This document shows positions 38,866 through 45,596 of a DNA stretch of 45,682 nucleotides, one piece after another (within the stretch, counting starts at the first letter, position 1; every line of letters starts with the position of its first letter). Source of the stretch: Bacteroidales bacterium. Its GTDB lineage: Bacteria; Bacteroidota; Bacteroidia; Bacteroidales; JAIOZK01. The notes beneath the pieces were generated by a model. It was given only the letters and a program-made list of their open reading frames with translations. It did not search any database and had not been told where the DNA came from. The stretch covers positions 1 through 45,682 of the forward strand of contig JAIOZK010000029.1 in the NCBI GenBank assembly GCA_021740625.1, in the 5' to 3' direction. The translations under genes were made by a program, and so were the position numbers.

Positions 38866-39627
38866 TCAATACTTGATCCTGGTCTCCGGCAGCAACACCT
38901 TCAGGCTGTCGATGGTGGTTAAAGGGATATTATTCCCATTCAGGTATAATGACTGCAGTTTTTTTAGTTTGCCGATTTCGAGCGGAACATCATTCAATTC
39001 ATTATTCTCAAGATTGATTATTTCCAGGTTTTTAAGGTTTTGAATATCAGGTTTAATATTGTCAATCTTATTCTTTTTCATACCCAATACTTTCAACTGT
39101 TTCATTTCATAAAGTGCATCCGGCAGTGAAGTAAGCCCGTTGCGGTCAAAGTATATCTCATTCACAGATTCCATTTCACAAAGCCTGGATGGTATTGAAT
39201 CCAGTTGATTATTTCCCATCCTGATTCTCTTAAGGTTAGGAAGTTGGTAGATTGCATCGGGCAATTTTGTAAACAGGTTGTCATTCAGATATAAACTCTG
39301 CAGGTATTGCATATCGCCTATATAGCGGGGCAGATCTTTTAATTTGTTATCACTGAGCTCTAAGGTGTTCAGGTTGATAAAATTGATCAATTCTTTGGGA
39401 ACAGATTCGAGTTCCTTCCTGAAAAGAACCAATTTGTATACTTTTAGTGGTTCCTGTAAGGCTTCTTCAAGATTCCTGTAGGTAGGCAACTCGTACAACT
39501 TTGCCAGGTTGAAGAATTTCGACGAATCAAAACCATCGTAATGAATGCTGTTTTTGCACCCCTGGTTCACAGATGCGATGATCATGATGACCAGAAGCAG
39601 GGTGATGATGAAATAATTTCTTTTCAT
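38866..39627 (-). CDS. Leucine-rich-repeat lipoprotein
   Basis: A 253-aa protein. The ATG at 39627 is chosen because it directly begins a lipoprotein signal (MKRNYFIITLLLVIMIIASVNQGC); the frame extends 40 codons further with no signal-like start. About seven leucine-rich repeats of 23 residues follow (pattern LxxLxLxxNxLxxLPxxI, for example LQSLYLNDNLFTKLPDAI). It is likely a surface or periplasmic binding protein; the ligand is unknown. Its stop abuts that of pdxH, and its start is 76 bp behind the TonB receptor gene in the same direction, so it could be read through from there. Confidence 0.85.
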   Translation of the reverse strand: MKRNYFIITLLLVIMIIASVNQGCKNSIHYDGFDSSKFFNLAKLYELPTYRNLEEALQEPLKVYKLVLFRKELESVPKELINFINLNTLELSDNKLKDLPRYIGDMQYLQSLYLNDNLFTKLPDAIYQLPNLKRIRMGNNQLDSIPSRLCEMESVNEIYFDRNGLTSLPDALYEMKQLKVLGMKKNKIDNIKPDIQNLKNLEIINLENNELNDVPLEIGKLKKLQSLYLNGNNIPLTTIDSLKVLLPETRIKY

Positions 39628-39703
39628 GTTCTTCAAATTATAATTCCAAAAATAACAAAAGACCGTCGCTTGAAACTTGTTTTTGCTATTCTTCAAACAA
39701 AAA

Positions 39704-42517
39704 TTAATTGATCTGGTATTTAATACCCAGTTTATACGTCCTGCCAAAGTTATATCTCAGGTAATCCAGGTCTTCTTCTACCGGTTTGGTATAATGATGG
39801 ACCGCCCGGTATTCCGAATCAAGTATGTTGTTCACACCCAGTTCAACAGTAAACTGTTTGTCTTTGCCCAATCCTTTTGAAATATTAAAATTCAGCATGG
39901 GTTGCGGCTGGGCATAAACATAAGGGGTCTTCCCTTTGGTGATCAGGATCAAATCCTCACCTGTTACATTGAAGCCCAGGTTTGATTCCAGACCGATTTC
40001 ATCATAGCGGTATGAAAGAAAAGTATTCAGGATCCAGGGTGCCTGCCCAAGCATTTCCCTTGTATCCTTGTCGGTATCCTGTTTTTCAATTTCAGTCAGT
40101 TCAACCGATGAATAAACCCAGGTGAAATTACTTCCAAAGGTGAAGTGCCTGAGCAGGTAAAGGAATTCAAGTTTTTTCCGAAACTCCACTTCCAATCCGT
40201 AAAGTTGTGCTTCATCGGTATTCACATATTTAATTTCGTAGTTCTGGGTGGTAACCGACAACTTTTGTTCGATCGGATTTTTGAAGAATTTATAGAATCC
40301 GCTCACGCTAACTTTTTCACCAGGTTTGAAGAACCATTCCCATCTCAGGTCCAGGTTGGTGATCTGCGAACGTTTCAGGTCGGGATTACCGGTAATAAAA
40401 ACACCGGTTTTATAATCATAATAGTTGGTACCGATCTCTCGGAATTTCGGTCGGGCTATGGTTTGCGAACCTGCCAACCTGATGTTCATATTTTTATTCA
40501 GGGAGTAGATCAAACTCAAAGAAGGCAGAATGTCAGCTTCATCAATTTGCCCATGTTTGTAAAGGTTGCTGGTGGTATCCTCCACCTTGTTTTTTACTTC
40601 TATATCGGAGGTTTCCAGCCTGGCCCCCACAATCGTTCTCAGCTCATTTGTTATGGGCATATCGATCATGGCATATGCAGCAATTACTTTTTGGCTTGCC
40701 TCATAACTGTTGTTCAGGTCCTGGTCGCGATCGCCTTTGTAATAGTATCCTTTGTGATTGCCGTCGCTGATCATGTATTCCCTGAGGAAAACTTCAATAT
40801 CAGTGGTTTGGAACCTGTCTTTGAAAGTTGTGGTCAGATCGAATTTGGTTTCGTCCAGGCTTCTTGTTTTGCTTGAATAAGCTCCTCCGAACTTGGCTTT
40901 CGCATTTTGTGATGAAATCTTCAGCGGAAGCTCAAAATCAATTTTGCCAAAATAATCTTTTTCATCCATCAATCTGTAAAAACGACCCGGCAGATCATTG
41001 GTTTTGATTCTCATGGTATTGGGGTCGGGCAATAAAAACTCAAAGAACCGCAGATCAGGTTCGTTTTGTTTCATATAGGTATAAGAGCCCAGCCAGTTTA
41101 CTACCAATTTATTCAGGCCCGGGAAAACATGTTTTCCGTGCAACTGGTAGTTGTCGAAAGTCCTTTCCAGGAATGCCAGGTTCCTGTCTTCATCAGCGAT
41201 ATCTTCATAATAGAAATATCCGGAACGGCTGATGGCGATTTTCTTGCCACTCTGGTTTCTTAAATAGCGTGCACCGATTTTGTTGTTGTTGTTCAGCTTG
41301 AGGTTCAGATTGAGCAATCCTGATAAGTTTGCGTTTGTTGCACCATAGGTGACATCATCGAAGATCCTCCATTTATCAGGTTGTTCACCTTCTTCGTAGA
41401 TGCCGTAATGACCATCATCGTAATATTTGTAATTATGTGTATATCCCAGGGATATGTTATAACCGAGTACTTTTTTGAGGAATTCCACCTGGTTCCCTAC
41501 GACAAATTTATAGGATTGGTTCAGGTATGACTTTTTTGTTGTGGGGGACATCTGGGGATTAAATTCTTTTGAAATTTTTTCCAGGGTGCTGTATGTATAG
41601 GGGGGATTTGGATCGGTAATGTTAATATAACCATATCTTTCGAGATATTCATTGGCTATGGCGGGAACGTCCCTGCTGCCGTCATCTGTCCCGAGCCAGT
41701 CGGTATCTCCGCCATCATAACTCAGGAAGTTATCGATATAATTGGCCTGGGGATTATAGCCCAGGTCTGTCGAGAACATCATGGTGAATTTTTCCGGAAA
41801 ATCTTTGGTAACAATATCAACATGTCCGCCGGTTGATTCACCTGGAAGGTCGGGTGTGAATGTTTTATGAACGATAATATTTTCAATGATGTTGCTGGGA
41901 AAAATATCCATTTGTACTGTATTCTTTTCAGGATCCAGTGCGGGAATACTACCCCCGTTCAGGGTAATTACGGTATACCGGTCGCCGAGGCCCCGCACAA
42001 ATACATATTTATCATCTTGTACGGATACACCAGTAACCCTTTTCAAAGCTGCGGCAGCATCACTGTCACCCAGCCTGGAAATTTGCCGAGCGCTGATCCC
42101 ATCCAGCATGGTGGCAGAGTTTTTCTGCATTACCTGTATAGCAGCTTCCGTATTCCTGACCGCTTTAGCCGTGACCACGACTTCCTGCAATTCCGTTACT
42201 ACTTCATCCAGGTTGGCATTGATCACTGTTACATCTCCATCATTGATTTCAACATTTTCATATTCCTGGGGTTGATAAGAAATATAGGATATCCTGATAT
42301 TGTAATTACCGGCAGGCAGTTTCAGACTATAATTGCCATCAAAATCTGTAGTGGTACCCATTGTCGTTCCGACAACAGCTACTGTAACTCCGATCAGTGT
42401 TTCTCCTGTTTTGTTATCGATTACTTTTCCACGCAAATGACCTTCCTGGGCCATTGCAGAAAATGCTAAAAACATCATAAATAAAACACTCAGTATTCTT
42501 TTTGTCATTTTATTCAT
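39704..42517 (-). CDS. TonB-dependent outer-membrane receptor, candidate Pho-regulated
   Basis: A 937-aa receptor. The ATG at 42517 opens onto a signal peptide (MNKMTKRILSVLFMMFLAFSAMAQ); a start nine bases later is equally possible, and the frame also runs further upstream. A carboxypeptidase-like domain (about 25-110, LRGKVIDNKTGETLIGVTV) is followed by a plug (AAAALKRVTGVSVQDDKYVFVRG, split landmark; IENIIVHKTFTPDLPGESTGG) and a long barrel ending YKLGIKYQIN. It lies 97 bp behind the beta-helix lipoprotein gene, with a terminator-like hairpin in the gap. The pair resembles receptor/surface-lipoprotein partners. The substrate is not known; the Pho-like sites upstream suggest phosphate-containing material. 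Confidence 0.92.
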   Translation of the reverse strand: MNKMTKRILSVLFMMFLAFSAMAQEGHLRGKVIDNKTGETLIGVTVAVVGTTMGTTTDFDGNYSLKLPAGNYNIRISYISYQPQEYENVEINDGDVTVINANLDEVVTELQEVVVTAKAVRNTEAAIQVMQKNSATMLDGISARQISRLGDSDAAAALKRVTGVSVQDDKYVFVRGLGDRYTVITLNGGSIPALDPEKNTVQMDIFPSNIIENIIVHKTFTPDLPGESTGGHVDIVTKDFPEKFTMMFSTDLGYNPQANYIDNFLSYDGGDTDWLGTDDGSRDVPAIANEYLERYGYINITDPNPPYTYSTLEKISKEFNPQMSPTTKKSYLNQSYKFVVGNQVEFLKKVLGYNISLGYTHNYKYYDDGHYGIYEEGEQPDKWRIFDDVTYGATNANLSGLLNLNLKLNNNNKIGARYLRNQSGKKIAISRSGYFYYEDIADEDRNLAFLERTFDNYQLHGKHVFPGLNKLVVNWLGSYTYMKQNEPDLRFFEFLLPDPNTMRIKTNDLPGRFYRLMDEKDYFGKIDFELPLKISSQNAKAKFGGAYSSKTRSLDETKFDLTTTFKDRFQTTDIEVFLREYMISDGNHKGYYYKGDRDQDLNNSYEASQKVIAAYAMIDMPITNELRTIVGARLETSDIEVKNKVEDTTSNLYKHGQIDEADILPSLSLIYSLNKNMNIRLAGSQTIARPKFREIGTNYYDYKTGVFITGNPDLKRSQITNLDLRWEWFFKPGEKVSVSGFYKFFKNPIEQKLSVTTQNYEIKYVNTDEAQLYGLEVEFRKKLEFLYLLRHFTFGSNFTWVYSSVELTEIEKQDTDKDTREMLGQAPWILNTFLSYRYDEIGLESNLGFNVTGEDLILITKGKTPYVYAQPQPMLNFNISKGLGKDKQFTVELGVNNILDSEYRAVHHYTKPVEEDLDYLRYNFGRTYKLGIKYQIN

Positions 42518-42562
42518 TTTTATGTTGTAGGAACTTATTGGATAATTGCCTTTCATAAAAAT

Positions 42563-42613: not shown

Positions 42614-44248
42614 TTATTTGAAATACAATGTCCAGCCATCGGCCCAGTTTGTTCCACCCGGTTGAAATGCACCATGATAGGGAGCATCTACGAAGAAATC
42701 GTCAACTGGTTTGGCAGCAACGGGATGTGCGGACGCTGCAGCAGGAACAACATTGTCCATGTCGATTCCCATATCTTCTGCAAAGTTCTGATTGTTGTTG
42801 AACAGGTTGTTGGTAACTGTTTCGTGATCAGCAGGGAGTGTACCTGATTCAGCTTTTGCGTAAATATATTTTTCTGCAATGTTGCTGAAAAGGTTGTTTT
42901 TGATCATCAGTGTAGCTTCAGGAGAGGCATCTGTTAACCAGTCGTAGCTGCTGTGTTTGTCATCACGATACTCGATCCTGAGACCTTGCGCACCATGAGC
43001 GAAAATTGAGTTGGCATAGATGCCGGCAGCATTGTCGCGGAAGATTACATAGTTATCGAATCCATGTCCGATGTACGTGAAATTGTAATAAGTAGGCTGT
43101 GCATAAGGAGCTGCTTCTTCGTCGTCTCCGGTACCACCGTCCTGCTCAGCAAGGCGGTCACCTGTTTCTTCACCCTGGATAGCACACCAGAACTGACCTT
43201 TGCCCTGGAAGCCTTCGTCTGTATCGAAAGAGTCGTCACCAACGAGTGCTACGAGTGCATATTTCACCTCGGCAACACCGCCAAAGAATTCCATACCGTC
43301 ATCTTTGTTTGAGATAACTTCGATATGATCCAGTTGTGTTCCTCTACCAACGGCACCCAGCGAAATACCGTTAATTTCGTTACCTGCACCAATGTCAGTA
43401 CCACCGTGACGAACCTGGATATATGAGAAGGTACCTGAATTGTCATCGTTGTTGGCGCCAACGTTTCCGTCGAAACCGTAGAAAGCGTTGAAAGCTTCCG
43501 GCAAACCTTCGATCCTTTTGGCGATGCTGTTGTTTGTTTCGGCTTTTCCGAGAATGATCAGACCACCCCAGAGTCCCTGTACATATTTTGCGTAATTGCC
43601 ATCTTTGCCATCACCAAGTCCGGTCATAACAATGGGATCTGAAGCTGTTCCTGTTGCTTCAACTTTACCACCCATTTTTACGATGAGGGCACTGGCGTTT
43701 TCACCCTGTCCGGGATTTCCTTCGATGAGTGTTCCGGCAGGAATTGTAAGGGTTGCACCGTCTTCAACGAATACAAATCCATCGAGAATATACTTGATGG
43801 AGGCATCCAGTGCCATATCGGAAGTAATACTTCCCTGCAATGTGATTTCGCTGGGAGCTTCACCAACATAAGCAGTTCTTTGTGTTGTGGATGTCAAACC
43901 ACCACCATCTTTTACTTCCATGGTAACAACATATTCACCGGCTGCCGCCCAGGAATGTGTGGCTGTTTTTTCGGTTGCGTAATCAGTGTCGTAAGTACCG
44001 TCTGATTCCCAATCCCATCTCACTTGCAATGCGTCTGCAGGTGTTTCTTCGTCTGAGGAACCTGAGGCATCGAAAGTAAACTCTTCACCAATATCACCAA
44101 CAACCGGAGTAACTTCAAATGAAGCTACAGGTTTGGTGTTTGTTGGCTGTGGATCCGGATCATCGTCATCATCATCTTTACATGATGTTACTACCAACAT
44201 ACTTGCTGCCATGAGCAACATTAACATTCTGAAACTAAGTTTTTTCAT
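42614..44248 (-). CDS. Surface-type lipoprotein with PKD domain and beta-helix
   Basis: A 544-aa lipoprotein. The signal MKKLSFRMLMLLMAASMLVVTSC puts the lipidated cysteine at residue 23. It is followed at once by KDDDDDD, an acidic run like the Bacteroidota lipoprotein export signal that sends lipoproteins to the cell surface. A PKD domain follows (about 40-130, WDWESDGTYDTDY...THSWAAAGEYVVT). The remainder (about 140-544) is a glycine- and asparagine-rich repeat region compatible with a right-handed beta-helix (GLWGGLIILGKAE, ISLGAVGRGTQLDHIEVISN). There is no C-terminal T9SS domain. It is the first gene of the pair with the TonB receptor. Three 11-bp-spaced TTAACA-type repeats lie before it. 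No catalytic site recognised. Confidence 0.85.
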   Translation of the reverse strand: MKKLSFRMLMLLMAASMLVVTSCKDDDDDDPDPQPTNTKPVASFEVTPVVGDIGEEFTFDASGSSDEETPADALQVRWDWESDGTYDTDYATEKTATHSWAAAGEYVVTMEVKDGGGLTSTTQRTAYVGEAPSEITLQGSITSDMALDASIKYILDGFVFVEDGATLTIPAGTLIEGNPGQGENASALIVKMGGKVEATGTASDPIVMTGLGDGKDGNYAKYVQGLWGGLIILGKAETNNSIAKRIEGLPEAFNAFYGFDGNVGANNDDNSGTFSYIQVRHGGTDIGAGNEINGISLGAVGRGTQLDHIEVISNKDDGMEFFGGVAEVKYALVALVGDDSFDTDEGFQGKGQFWCAIQGEETGDRLAEQDGGTGDDEEAAPYAQPTYYNFTYIGHGFDNYVIFRDNAAGIYANSIFAHGAQGLRIEYRDDKHSSYDWLTDASPEATLMIKNNLFSNIAEKYIYAKAESGTLPADHETVTNNLFNNNQNFAEDMGIDMDNVVPAAASAHPVAAKPVDDFFVDAPYHGAFQPGGTNWADGWTLYFK

Positions 44249-44339
44249 TGTTTGCGATTTTTGGATTTAAAGATTAATTGTTTTGTTTTTTCGTTTTGCG
44301 AATTACAATGGCAAAGGAAGACCTTGTATCGAAAGTGTA

Positions 44340-44368
44340 TTTTAAGATAAGATTAACCTTATGTTAAG
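44340..44368 (-). promoter_or_regulatory. Candidate Pho box before the beta-helix lipoprotein gene
   Basis: On the minus strand TTAACA-N5-TTAATC-N5-TTAAAA lies with an exact 11-bp period (plus-strand units begin at 44340, 44351 and 44362). This is the TTAACA direct-repeat form known for Bacillus PhoP and cyanobacterial SphR. A -7-like TTCCTTTG (44312-44319) lies 20 bases further downstream. Confidence 0.55.
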
Positions 44369-44458
44369 TTTTTAACGTTGTGTATGTATTTAATTAACAA
44401 TTTTTTAATGTGGTTTTATCCTTATGGAAGTGAGGTGGATACAAGGGTGTGTATGGAG

Positions 44459-45154
44459 CTAAATGCCGCTCGAAAGTATGAAACTATAACCGATGCCTTT
44501 GTAGGTTCGGATATTGTCAAAACCGATTTTTTCCCTGATCTTTTTAATGTGAACATCGATTGTTCTCTCACCAACGATGACTTCATCACCCCAAACATGA
44601 TTGAATATTTCCTCTCTTGAAAATACTTTATTCGGGCGGGAACTCAGAAAATACAAAAGTTCAAACTCTTTTTTTGGCAATTGTGTTTTTTTCCCATCTT
44701 TCACAACGAGGTATTCATCTTTATCGATGATGATATTGTCCAGTTCAATGACATCTTCTTTTGAAGCAAAATGCTTTCTTCTCCTCAGCAGGGCATTCAC
44801 ACGGCTGATAAATACGTTGGGACGAATGGGCTTTTTAATGAAATCATCCGCGCCGGCATCGAAGCCGGCAATCTGGGTGTAATCTTCGGTGCGGGCAGTA
44901 AGAAAGGCCATCACTGTGTCTTTTAATTCAGGAATTGCGCGCAATTCATTGCATGCTTCGATGCCATCCATCTCAGGCATCATAATATCCAGGATGATCA
45001 ATTCCGGGATTTTTGCTCTTGCAATTTTGATGGCATCTTTTCCATTGGTGGCCGTGAGGACAACAAAATTATTTTTTCGCAAGTTATAACTCAAAAACTC
45101 AAGGATATCCTTTTCATCATCCACCAGCAAAACTTTACTGCCTATGTTTTCCAT
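44459..45154 (-). CDS. PhoB/OmpR-family response regulator
   Basis: A 231-aa regulator. It has a receiver domain (1-125; D12, D13, phosphoacceptor D56 in LIILDIMMPEMDG; T in FLTARTED; K in IKKPIRP) and a winged-helix domain (about 135-231: LPKKEFELLYFLSSRPNKVFSREEIFNHVWG, split landmark; RTIDVHIKKIREKI; YKGIGYSF). This is closest to PhoB/PhoP-type regulators among OmpR-like proteins, which is not proof of a phosphate role. Four in-phase 11-bp repeats precede it, and three similar ones precede the neighbouring lipoprotein gene. This suggests it controls both. No partner kinase gene is inside the window. Confidence 0.93.
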   Translation of the reverse strand: MENIGSKVLLVDDEKDILEFLSYNLRKNNFVVLTATNGKDAIKIARAKIPELIILDIMMPEMDGIEACNELRAIPELKDTVMAFLTARTEDYTQIAGFDAGADDFIKKPIRPNVFISRVNALLRRRKHFASKEDVIELDNIIIDKDEYLVVKDGKKTQLPKKEFELLYFLSSRPNKVFSREEIFNHVWGDEVIVGERTIDVHIKKIREKIGFDNIRTYKGIGYSFILSSGI

Positions 45155-45173
45155 TGTACGAGAAATTGCTCGC

Positions 45174-45232
45174 CTGCAAAACTATCCGAAGGCTTTTAAG
45201 TCATTGTCAATAAAATGTTAATTAATGATTAA
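45174..45232 (-). promoter_or_regulatory. Candidate Pho box and promoter of the PhoB-like gene
   Basis: On the minus strand TTAATC, TTAACA, TTGACA and TTAAAA follow each other, each pair separated by exactly five bases (plus-strand units begin at 45227, 45216, 45205 and 45194). Nine bases downstream lies TAGTTTTG, a -7 element fitting TAnnTTTG, about 20 bases before the ATG. The layout suggests autoregulation. Confidence 0.6.
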
Positions 45233-45241
45233 TTCTGATGA

Positions 45242-45366
45242 GGGAGGCGCGAAGGAATGGAACCGCTAAGGCGCAAAGTCGCTAAGGTTTGGTATTGGGA
45301 GGCGCAAAGGCAATAAAACCGCTAAGGCGCAAGGTCGCTAAGGTTTGGTATTGGGAGGCGCTAAGG
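45242..45366. repeat. 55/56-bp tandem repeat, about 2.2 copies
   Basis: Copies start at 45242, 45297 and 45353 (last one partial) with the form GGGAGGCGC...ACCGCTAAGGCGCAA...GTCGCTAAGG...TTTGGTATT. The CGCTAAGGCGCAAAG core is a repeat widespread in Bacteroidota intergenic DNA. It lies between the regulator promoter and the transposase-like start. Confidence 0.8.
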
Positions 45367-45596
45367 AGATGTTTTGCGGGAACGCTAAGTAAATTAACCT
45401 GCTTTATTATGAGCTTAAATCTAAATTTTTATCTTATTCTTTTTTGATTTGAAGAATGAAGAGCTCAGTAATTATTCACAAAGCGACGAATTCCGTTTTT
45501 AATCAAAGGACTATTAAAATTTATCAATAATCCCAGATGTTTCCGGTTCACCAGTAATATTAGGTGGGGAATAAGAATTTAGTCTACCTTAGATCC
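45367..45596. other. Gene-free stretch before the transposase-like start
   Basis: AT-rich DNA with no reading frame or RNA gene that I can support. The left end of an insertion sequence may lie around 45540-45590, but no terminal inverted repeat can be tested because the other end is outside the window. Confidence 0.35.

Follow-up and report, generated by a model that had tools for sequence, protein, structure and literature searches.

Probable PHO-box-type repeat arrays before an unpaired PhoB-type regulator gene and an adjacent lipoprotein gene in a Bacteroidales genome

TTAACA-type repeats with an 11-bp period are bound by PhoP of Bacillus and by SphR of cyanobacteria, and the Bacillus PHO box, with the consensus TT(A/C/T)ACA, is placed near -35. 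The PHO box of Escherichia coli consists of 11-nt direct-repeat units that are bound head-to-tail by PhoB, a regulator of the OmpR/PhoB family (PMC4415409, accessible part). According to the accessible parts of the reports on Bacteroidota, phosphate depletion in Flavobacterium johnsoniae induces PhoB, the receptor Fjoh_0545 and the pectin-lyase type lipoprotein Fjoh_0546 of the phoBR cluster, as well as a phytase, and does not induce PhoR and OprP of the same cluster (PMC8115612). In Riemerella anatipestifer, DAP-seq of PhoP yielded a motif in which TTTAACA is most conserved, with a site in the regulator's own promoter and binding upstream of 764 genes in vitro (PMC9603813), and pstS is 8-fold higher in a double mutant (PMC5399024). 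Expression data document how Bacteroidota respond to phosphate starvation (PMC8115612), with no description of the operators involved in the literature that we found: a term search of the accessible part of that paper returned no motif, Pho box or promoter, and a literature search, with most subscription papers outside its coverage, recovered no described Bacteroidota PHO box beyond the Riemerella motif.

The stretch of DNA analyzed here (the window; 45,682 nucleotides) is contig C49 of a 4.0-Mb, 52-contig Bacteroidales genome. On its minus strand, pattern matching places four TTAACA-like units before the gene of an OmpR/PhoB-type response regulator (45194..45232) and three before the neighboring lipoprotein gene (44340..44367), at an 11-bp pitch and with exact N5 spacing in both arrays. 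The regulator-promoter array consists of TTAATC (45227-45232), TTAACA (45216-45221), TTGACA (45205-45210) and TTAAAA (45194-45199), and the lipoprotein-promoter array of TTAACA (44362-44367), TTAATC (44351-44356) and TTAAAA (44340-44345), with a weak, degenerate fourth unit, TTCGAT, in phase on the same strand (44329-44334). These positions bear out the first-pass annotation, which had described four and three in-phase units, with correct coordinates, and a common order of variants (TTAACA, TTrAyM, TTAAAA) at exact N5 spacing. A PHO box holds at least two direct repeats at an 11-bp period, and four and three are present here. The further claim of the first-pass annotation, that the arrays are hard to explain by chance, agrees with the shuffle control as well as with the spacing and conservation tests described below: the pattern (TTAACA-N5)x3 with at most three mismatches matches the window three times, two of these matches being registers of the regulator array, compared with a mean of 0.08 and a maximum of 1 in 100 shuffles of the window. 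A scan of the whole window at a score of at least 14/18 returned seven rows, namely three from the two known arrays and four others (plus strand 28519, 44342 and 44394; minus strand 5322). Just upstream of the regulator promoter lies a tandem repeat of about 56 bp (GGCGCAAAGTCGCTAAGG type; 2.3 copies, 45242-45367).

Both arrays recur in an orthologous locus, L069 (JAGYLD010000098.1, a Bacteroidales MAG), where the gene order is that of the window: regulator, lipoprotein, receptor, leucine-rich-repeat (LRR) gene, and then the same PNPOx gene. The regulator array of L069 reads TTAATC-TTAACA-TTTACA-TTAAAC, with order and phase kept, and its lipoprotein array TTAACA-TTAACA-TTAAAA, with place, order and phase kept. 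Between the window and L069, 38 of 42 unit bases are identical, as against 10 of 25 spacer bases (Fisher p 1.6e-5), in what is a small sample from one orthologous locus.

The -7 box of Bacteroidota promoters has the consensus TAnnTTTG and occupies positions -12 to -5 (PMC9723704, accessible part). A full match to it, TAGTTTTG (45177..45184, minus strand), starts 15 bp after the start of unit 4 of the regulator array, and a 5/6 match, TTCCTTTG (44312..44319, minus strand), which is identical in L069, starts 26 bp after the start of TTAAAA in the lipoprotein array. We examined the phase of such boxes, accepted at 5/6 or better, across 80 array promoters, which were drawn from all gene classes and were left after near-copies had been removed from 83. 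Counted from the start of the third unit, boxes begin at +26 (17 sites), +48 (11), +15 and +37 (4 each) and +59 (2). Overall, 38 of the 100 boxes at offsets 12-62 fall in the phase of 15+11k bp from a unit start, compared with 9.8 expected (p 5e-14, for sites that are not fully independent and an offset range picked after seeing the data). The -7 pattern is found inside the arrays too, at -21, -10 and +1 (6, 9 and 7 sites, respectively); these sites are taken to be the repeat units themselves. Both window promoters fit the phase, the regulator box lying at +15 from unit 4 and +26 from unit 3, and the lipoprotein box at +26. As in a PHO box, the units thus appear to hold a fixed place upstream of the downstream promoter box, judging from start sites implied by the -7 box; with that box set at -12 to -5, units would start at -27, -38, -49 and -60. 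In a scan of the same genome, a composite pattern with the -7 box at +26 found 29 matches compared with 10 in the control, and the window regulator promoter is its only single-mismatch match in the genome. The composite pattern with the box at +15 showed no genome-wide excess (19 versus 18 in the control).

The regulator (44459..45154, minus strand; 231 aa) comprises a receiver domain with the phospho-acceptor Asp (PF00072) and a winged-helix domain (PF00486), as does PhoB. The first-pass annotation had called it PhoB-like, and the two best-matching NCBIfam models are indeed PhoB families, TIGR02154 (203.6 bits, cut-off 296.2) and NF053854 (195.8 bits, cut-off 270), although the protein misses both curated cut-offs; we refine the description to an unpaired PhoB paralogue, to be told apart from a kinase-paired copy. 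The latter, encoded on contig C42, is 62% identical to the window regulator, is likewise below both cut-offs (217.0 for TIGR02154 and 219.0 for NF053854), and adjoins a PhoR/PnpS-like kinase that is itself under its curated cut-offs. The receiver Asp56 and the recognition-helix stretch (RTIDVH) of the window regulator match the paired PhoB, the recognition-helix stretches of the two proteins being nearly identical (GERTIDVHIKKIREKI and GDRTIDVHVRKIREKI). No kinase gene stands beside the window regulator on its downstream side, where the lipoprotein gene is next, and the contig ends on the upstream side. The 8.8-kb L069 contig has no homologue of the C42 kinase; the L069 genome likewise encodes two PhoB copies, and the single further genome of the same genus covered by the search encodes one copy, of the paired type. 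In a quick tree of 115 rows, with 53 of 111 inner branches open, the window regulator groups with L069 and L042 (SH-aLRT 90, branch not starred), and a 15-row group (87) holds these three together with C42. The unpaired copy illustrates how a regulator can be duplicated while both proteins probably bind the same sites. At the contig end (45597-45682), there is a possible transposase N-terminal start, weakly matching the ISAon1 family (E 0.0014, 19.1 of the 55-bit cut-off).

The lipoprotein gene (42614..44248, minus strand) encodes a protein with a PKD domain (PF18911 PKD_4) and, judged by eye, a signal sequence with Cys. Its AlphaFold2 model is beta-rich, with a mean pLDDT of 78 and 294 of 544 residues at 90 or above, and the C-terminal region is probably a parallel beta-helix. 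Polysaccharide epimerases, polygalacturonases and pectate lyases rank best in a Foldseek search, with a query TM of at most 0.27 among the rows listed and no match better than E 0.01; the fold search is suggestive only. The gene of a TonB-dependent receptor with a carboxypeptidase-regulatory-like N-terminus (39704..42556, minus strand; PF00593, PF07715, PF13715) lies 57 bp behind the lipoprotein gene. Directly behind the receptor gene, in the same place as in L069, is the LRR gene (38866..39747, minus strand; PF13855), an ORF with a lipoprotein-like start inside it, at Met of residue 41 (judged by eye), which is probably the last gene of the lipoprotein-receptor transcription unit. In a scan of named genomes, among the best 80 regulator loci of at least 582 relatives, 26 contain a homologue of lipoprotein residues 131-544 and 31 a homologue of the receptor.

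The same 80 loci, 79 of them with enough upstream DNA, were surveyed for arrays by the best three-unit match, with a threshold of 14/18 and spacings of 7-16 compared. At 11 bp, 19 of these 79 regulator promoters (from the best 80 of at least 582) reach the threshold, as against 0-3 at the nine other spacings; read in the gene's own direction, the remaining 60 are under it. In 20 rounds of shuffling the 79 promoters, a mean of 1.5 and at most 7 reached the threshold. The reverse unit at 11 bp was found in 25 of the promoters versus 1-4 at other spacings, because divergent receptor genes carry reverse arrays: a divergent receptor gene is present in 25 of 30 chosen loci, and in 16 of these 25 the reverse array is at threshold. 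A backward-unit control gave 0 at 11 bp and 0-2 at other spacings. Broken down by gene at 11 bp, with upstream regions shorter than 60 bases and ORFs open at a contig end left out, the counts at these loci are 20/32 for the receptor, 18/74 for the regulator, 6/16 for the lipoprotein, 5/14 for Pit, 1/3 for the porin, 2/27 for the kinase and 1/5 for other response regulators. Unclassified genes of the same loci also show an excess at 11 bp (30/506 versus 3-6 at other spacings), and hence phosphate-type genes are not the only ones to carry the motif. Among loci without a match to the C42 kinase, L072, L083, L087 and L097 also have a regulator next to receptor and lipoprotein genes; the genomes of the last three encode a single regulator copy at E <= 1e-50. 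Three Flavobacterium loci (L137, L138 and L143) contain a regulator, a kinase, a receptor and a homologue of the window lipoprotein (tblastn identity 33.5-35.0%, E 1e-34 to 1e-21); homology to a lipoprotein encoded beside a Flavobacterium phoB was established on these loci rather than on Fjoh_0546 itself.

Elsewhere in the genome, the first-pass annotation had proposed a scan for a link of the motif to phosphate genes, and that link appeared in part: arrays precede one PHO4-family transporter gene and a phytase gene, and are lacking before a pst-like operon, the paired phoBR and a second PHO4-family gene. The pattern (TTAACA-N5)x3 with at most three mismatches matches the genome 41 times, compared with 15 for a backward-read control. 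Thirty of the 41 matches were placed, two inside called ORFs and 28 outside them, some being registers of one array and eight of the 28 overlapping an ORF end by at most 17 bases. The transporter gene, on contig C13, is preceded by a four-unit array and adjoins a Na/Pi symporter gene; a porin-like gene and the gene of a second lipoprotein, which shares 44% identity with that of the window, lie divergent from it. On contig C3, three in-phase units and a -7 box at +26 (L188, C3:45071-45126) precede the phytase gene (PF02333, E 1.8e-103), which is one of nine two-mismatch matches to the +26 composite pattern; no phosphate link was seen for the other eight, among which the C28 gene alone was scanned against Pfam, and the phytase match could be luck, being one of nine with many gene types acceptable as phosphate-related. 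Array scores were too low for the pst-like operon (best 12/18; identified by eye and through a PstB-type ATPase below its curated cut-off, at 325.5 of 343.2 bits), the paired phoBR (11) and the Na/Pi symporter (10), and the PHO4 gene on contig C41 has no array.

In a search of 198 genomes for phytase genes, none of 13 such genes in 12 other genomes is preceded by an array. Among PHO4 genes, the count is 1 of 28 (30 loci of 39 matches, two dropped for short upstream DNA; the C41 gene included, the C13 gene not), a rate like that of a Cpn60 control (1 of 30; 30 loci of 57 matches). A general link to phosphate genes by family is rejected on this lack of excess over Cpn60, and the motif is therefore linked to PhoB-type clusters and, in this genome, to single genes as well. 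Among other repeats, L213 (C43:95882-95937) has TTAACA repeats at pitches of 11, 10 and 11 before the gene of a 97-aa small protein, divergent from a histidine kinase and 1-2 kb from an OmpR-type regulator, and possibly belongs to a different regulator with the same core motif. The genome's only one-mismatch three-unit match and a second array 0.7 kb away (L009/L016, C44:128880-129627) flank the gene of a 121-aa, probably secreted protein for which no phosphate link was seen. In this genome, phosphate regulators are probably not alone in using TTAACA repeats at an 11-bp pitch.

Judged from sequence, it is almost certain that the arrays serve an OmpR/PhoB-family regulator as operators, and probable that they are PHO boxes; that both are PHO-box-type operators of the PhoB family, acting as follows, we consider likely. 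Phosphorylated PhoB-family dimers would bind the TTAACA-N5 direct repeats head-to-tail, one unit per helical turn, at about -27/-38/-49/-60 in the regulator promoter and -38/-49/-60 in the lipoprotein promoter, counted from the start site that the -7 box implies. Bound PhoB would activate sigma-A promoters in which a repeat unit replaces the -33 element. The operator in the regulator promoter would confer autoregulation on the unpaired PhoB paralogue, and that in the lipoprotein promoter would drive a lipoprotein-TonB receptor-LRR operon, whose products probably serve to scavenge phosphorus compounds at the outer membrane under phosphate shortage. The unpaired regulator may be phosphorylated by a PhoR-type kinase encoded elsewhere, on C42. 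This PHO-box reading, first put forward in the initial annotation, gains support from arrays that are conserved and promoter-phased and from neighbor genes that match the phosphate-induced F. johnsoniae cluster. The proposed phosphate link rests, by analogy, on that match and on the arrays before the transporter and phytase genes of this genome.

A variant compatible with most of the same evidence also takes the arrays to be real operators, but makes the kinase-paired C42 PhoB their main reader and the unpaired copy a target, amplifier or competitor. The near identity of the recognition-helix stretches, the PhoR/PnpS-like kinase beside the C42 copy and the lack of an array in the C42 promoter itself all agree with such an arrangement, whereas L069 keeps the array with the unpaired copy, and regulators in loci without a match to the C42 kinase accompany receptor and lipoprotein genes in L072 and in the three single-copy genomes (L083, L087 and L097); on balance, we regard it as a real possibility that falls somewhat short of an even chance. 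We consider it unlikely that phosphate has been misread and that the repeats belong to a different OmpR-family regulator with a different signal, such as metal or envelope stress. TTAACA arrays do occur near the OmpR-type regulator and kinase of C43, and before genes judged by eye to be of efflux or metal type (C39:42965); the sites predicted for YycF in Staphylococcus take the same form when read backwards (PMC5405149, accessible part), and the 764 genes bound in vitro by the R. anatipestifer PhoP with its TTTAACA motif (PMC9603813, accessible part) point in the same direction. Against this stand the enrichment at PhoB-type regulator, receptor and lipoprotein promoters in the best 80 loci of at least 582 relatives and the phosphate response of the matching Flavobacterium cluster (PMC8115612, accessible part). 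Chance similarity in AT-rich intergenic DNA, to which the AT-richness of units and flanks and the one Cpn60 promoter in 30 at threshold might seem to point, is rejected on the grounds of the 0.08 matches expected, the spacing controls, the shuffles, the unit-versus-spacer conservation and the phase to the -7 box, and its probability appears negligible.

Returning to the PHO-box reading, a motif whose pitch and whose phase to the -7 box are both fixed would allow phosphate regulons to be predicted across a large phylum, uncultured members included, and the phase of array and box would allow the action of OmpR-family activators at the unusual Bacteroidota promoter to be tested directly. It is tempting to speculate, although we hold this broader view only tentatively and think it rather doubtful as a whole, that TTAACA-N5 arrays phase-locked to TAnnTTTG are the general operator grammar of Bacteroidota PhoB, and that in one lineage a PhoB duplicate with no kinase neighbor has come to regulate its own gene and to act as the dedicated switch of an operon for phosphorus scavenging at the outer membrane, taking its input from a PhoR whose gene lies elsewhere.

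Compared with the described systems, the candidate operators reported here resemble the PHO boxes of E. coli PhoB and Bacillus PhoP in being direct repeats with 11-nt units, and differ from the E. coli PHO box in the unit itself (TTAACA versus CTGTCAT) and in their combination with the Bacteroidota -7 box TAnnTTTG. The R. anatipestifer PhoP is similar at the level of motif and family: it is an OmpR-family regulator from the Bacteroidota, its motif has a TTAACA core, and one of its sites lies in its own promoter. The closest gene neighborhood is the F. johnsoniae phoBR-TonB receptor-lipoprotein FII cluster (Fjoh_0543-0546), where, as in the window, a PhoB-type regulator adjoins a receptor and a lipoprotein, the latter of beta-helix type there and probably so here. 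In F. johnsoniae, however, a kinase gene is the neighbor, and in L137, L138 and L143 the receptor and lipoprotein genes are divergent from the regulator, whereas the window has no adjacent kinase, has its genes co-oriented, and adds the PKD domain and the LRR gene. The mechanism is of a known kind; what is new is its Bacteroidota form with the phase rule, together with the unpaired PhoB copy.
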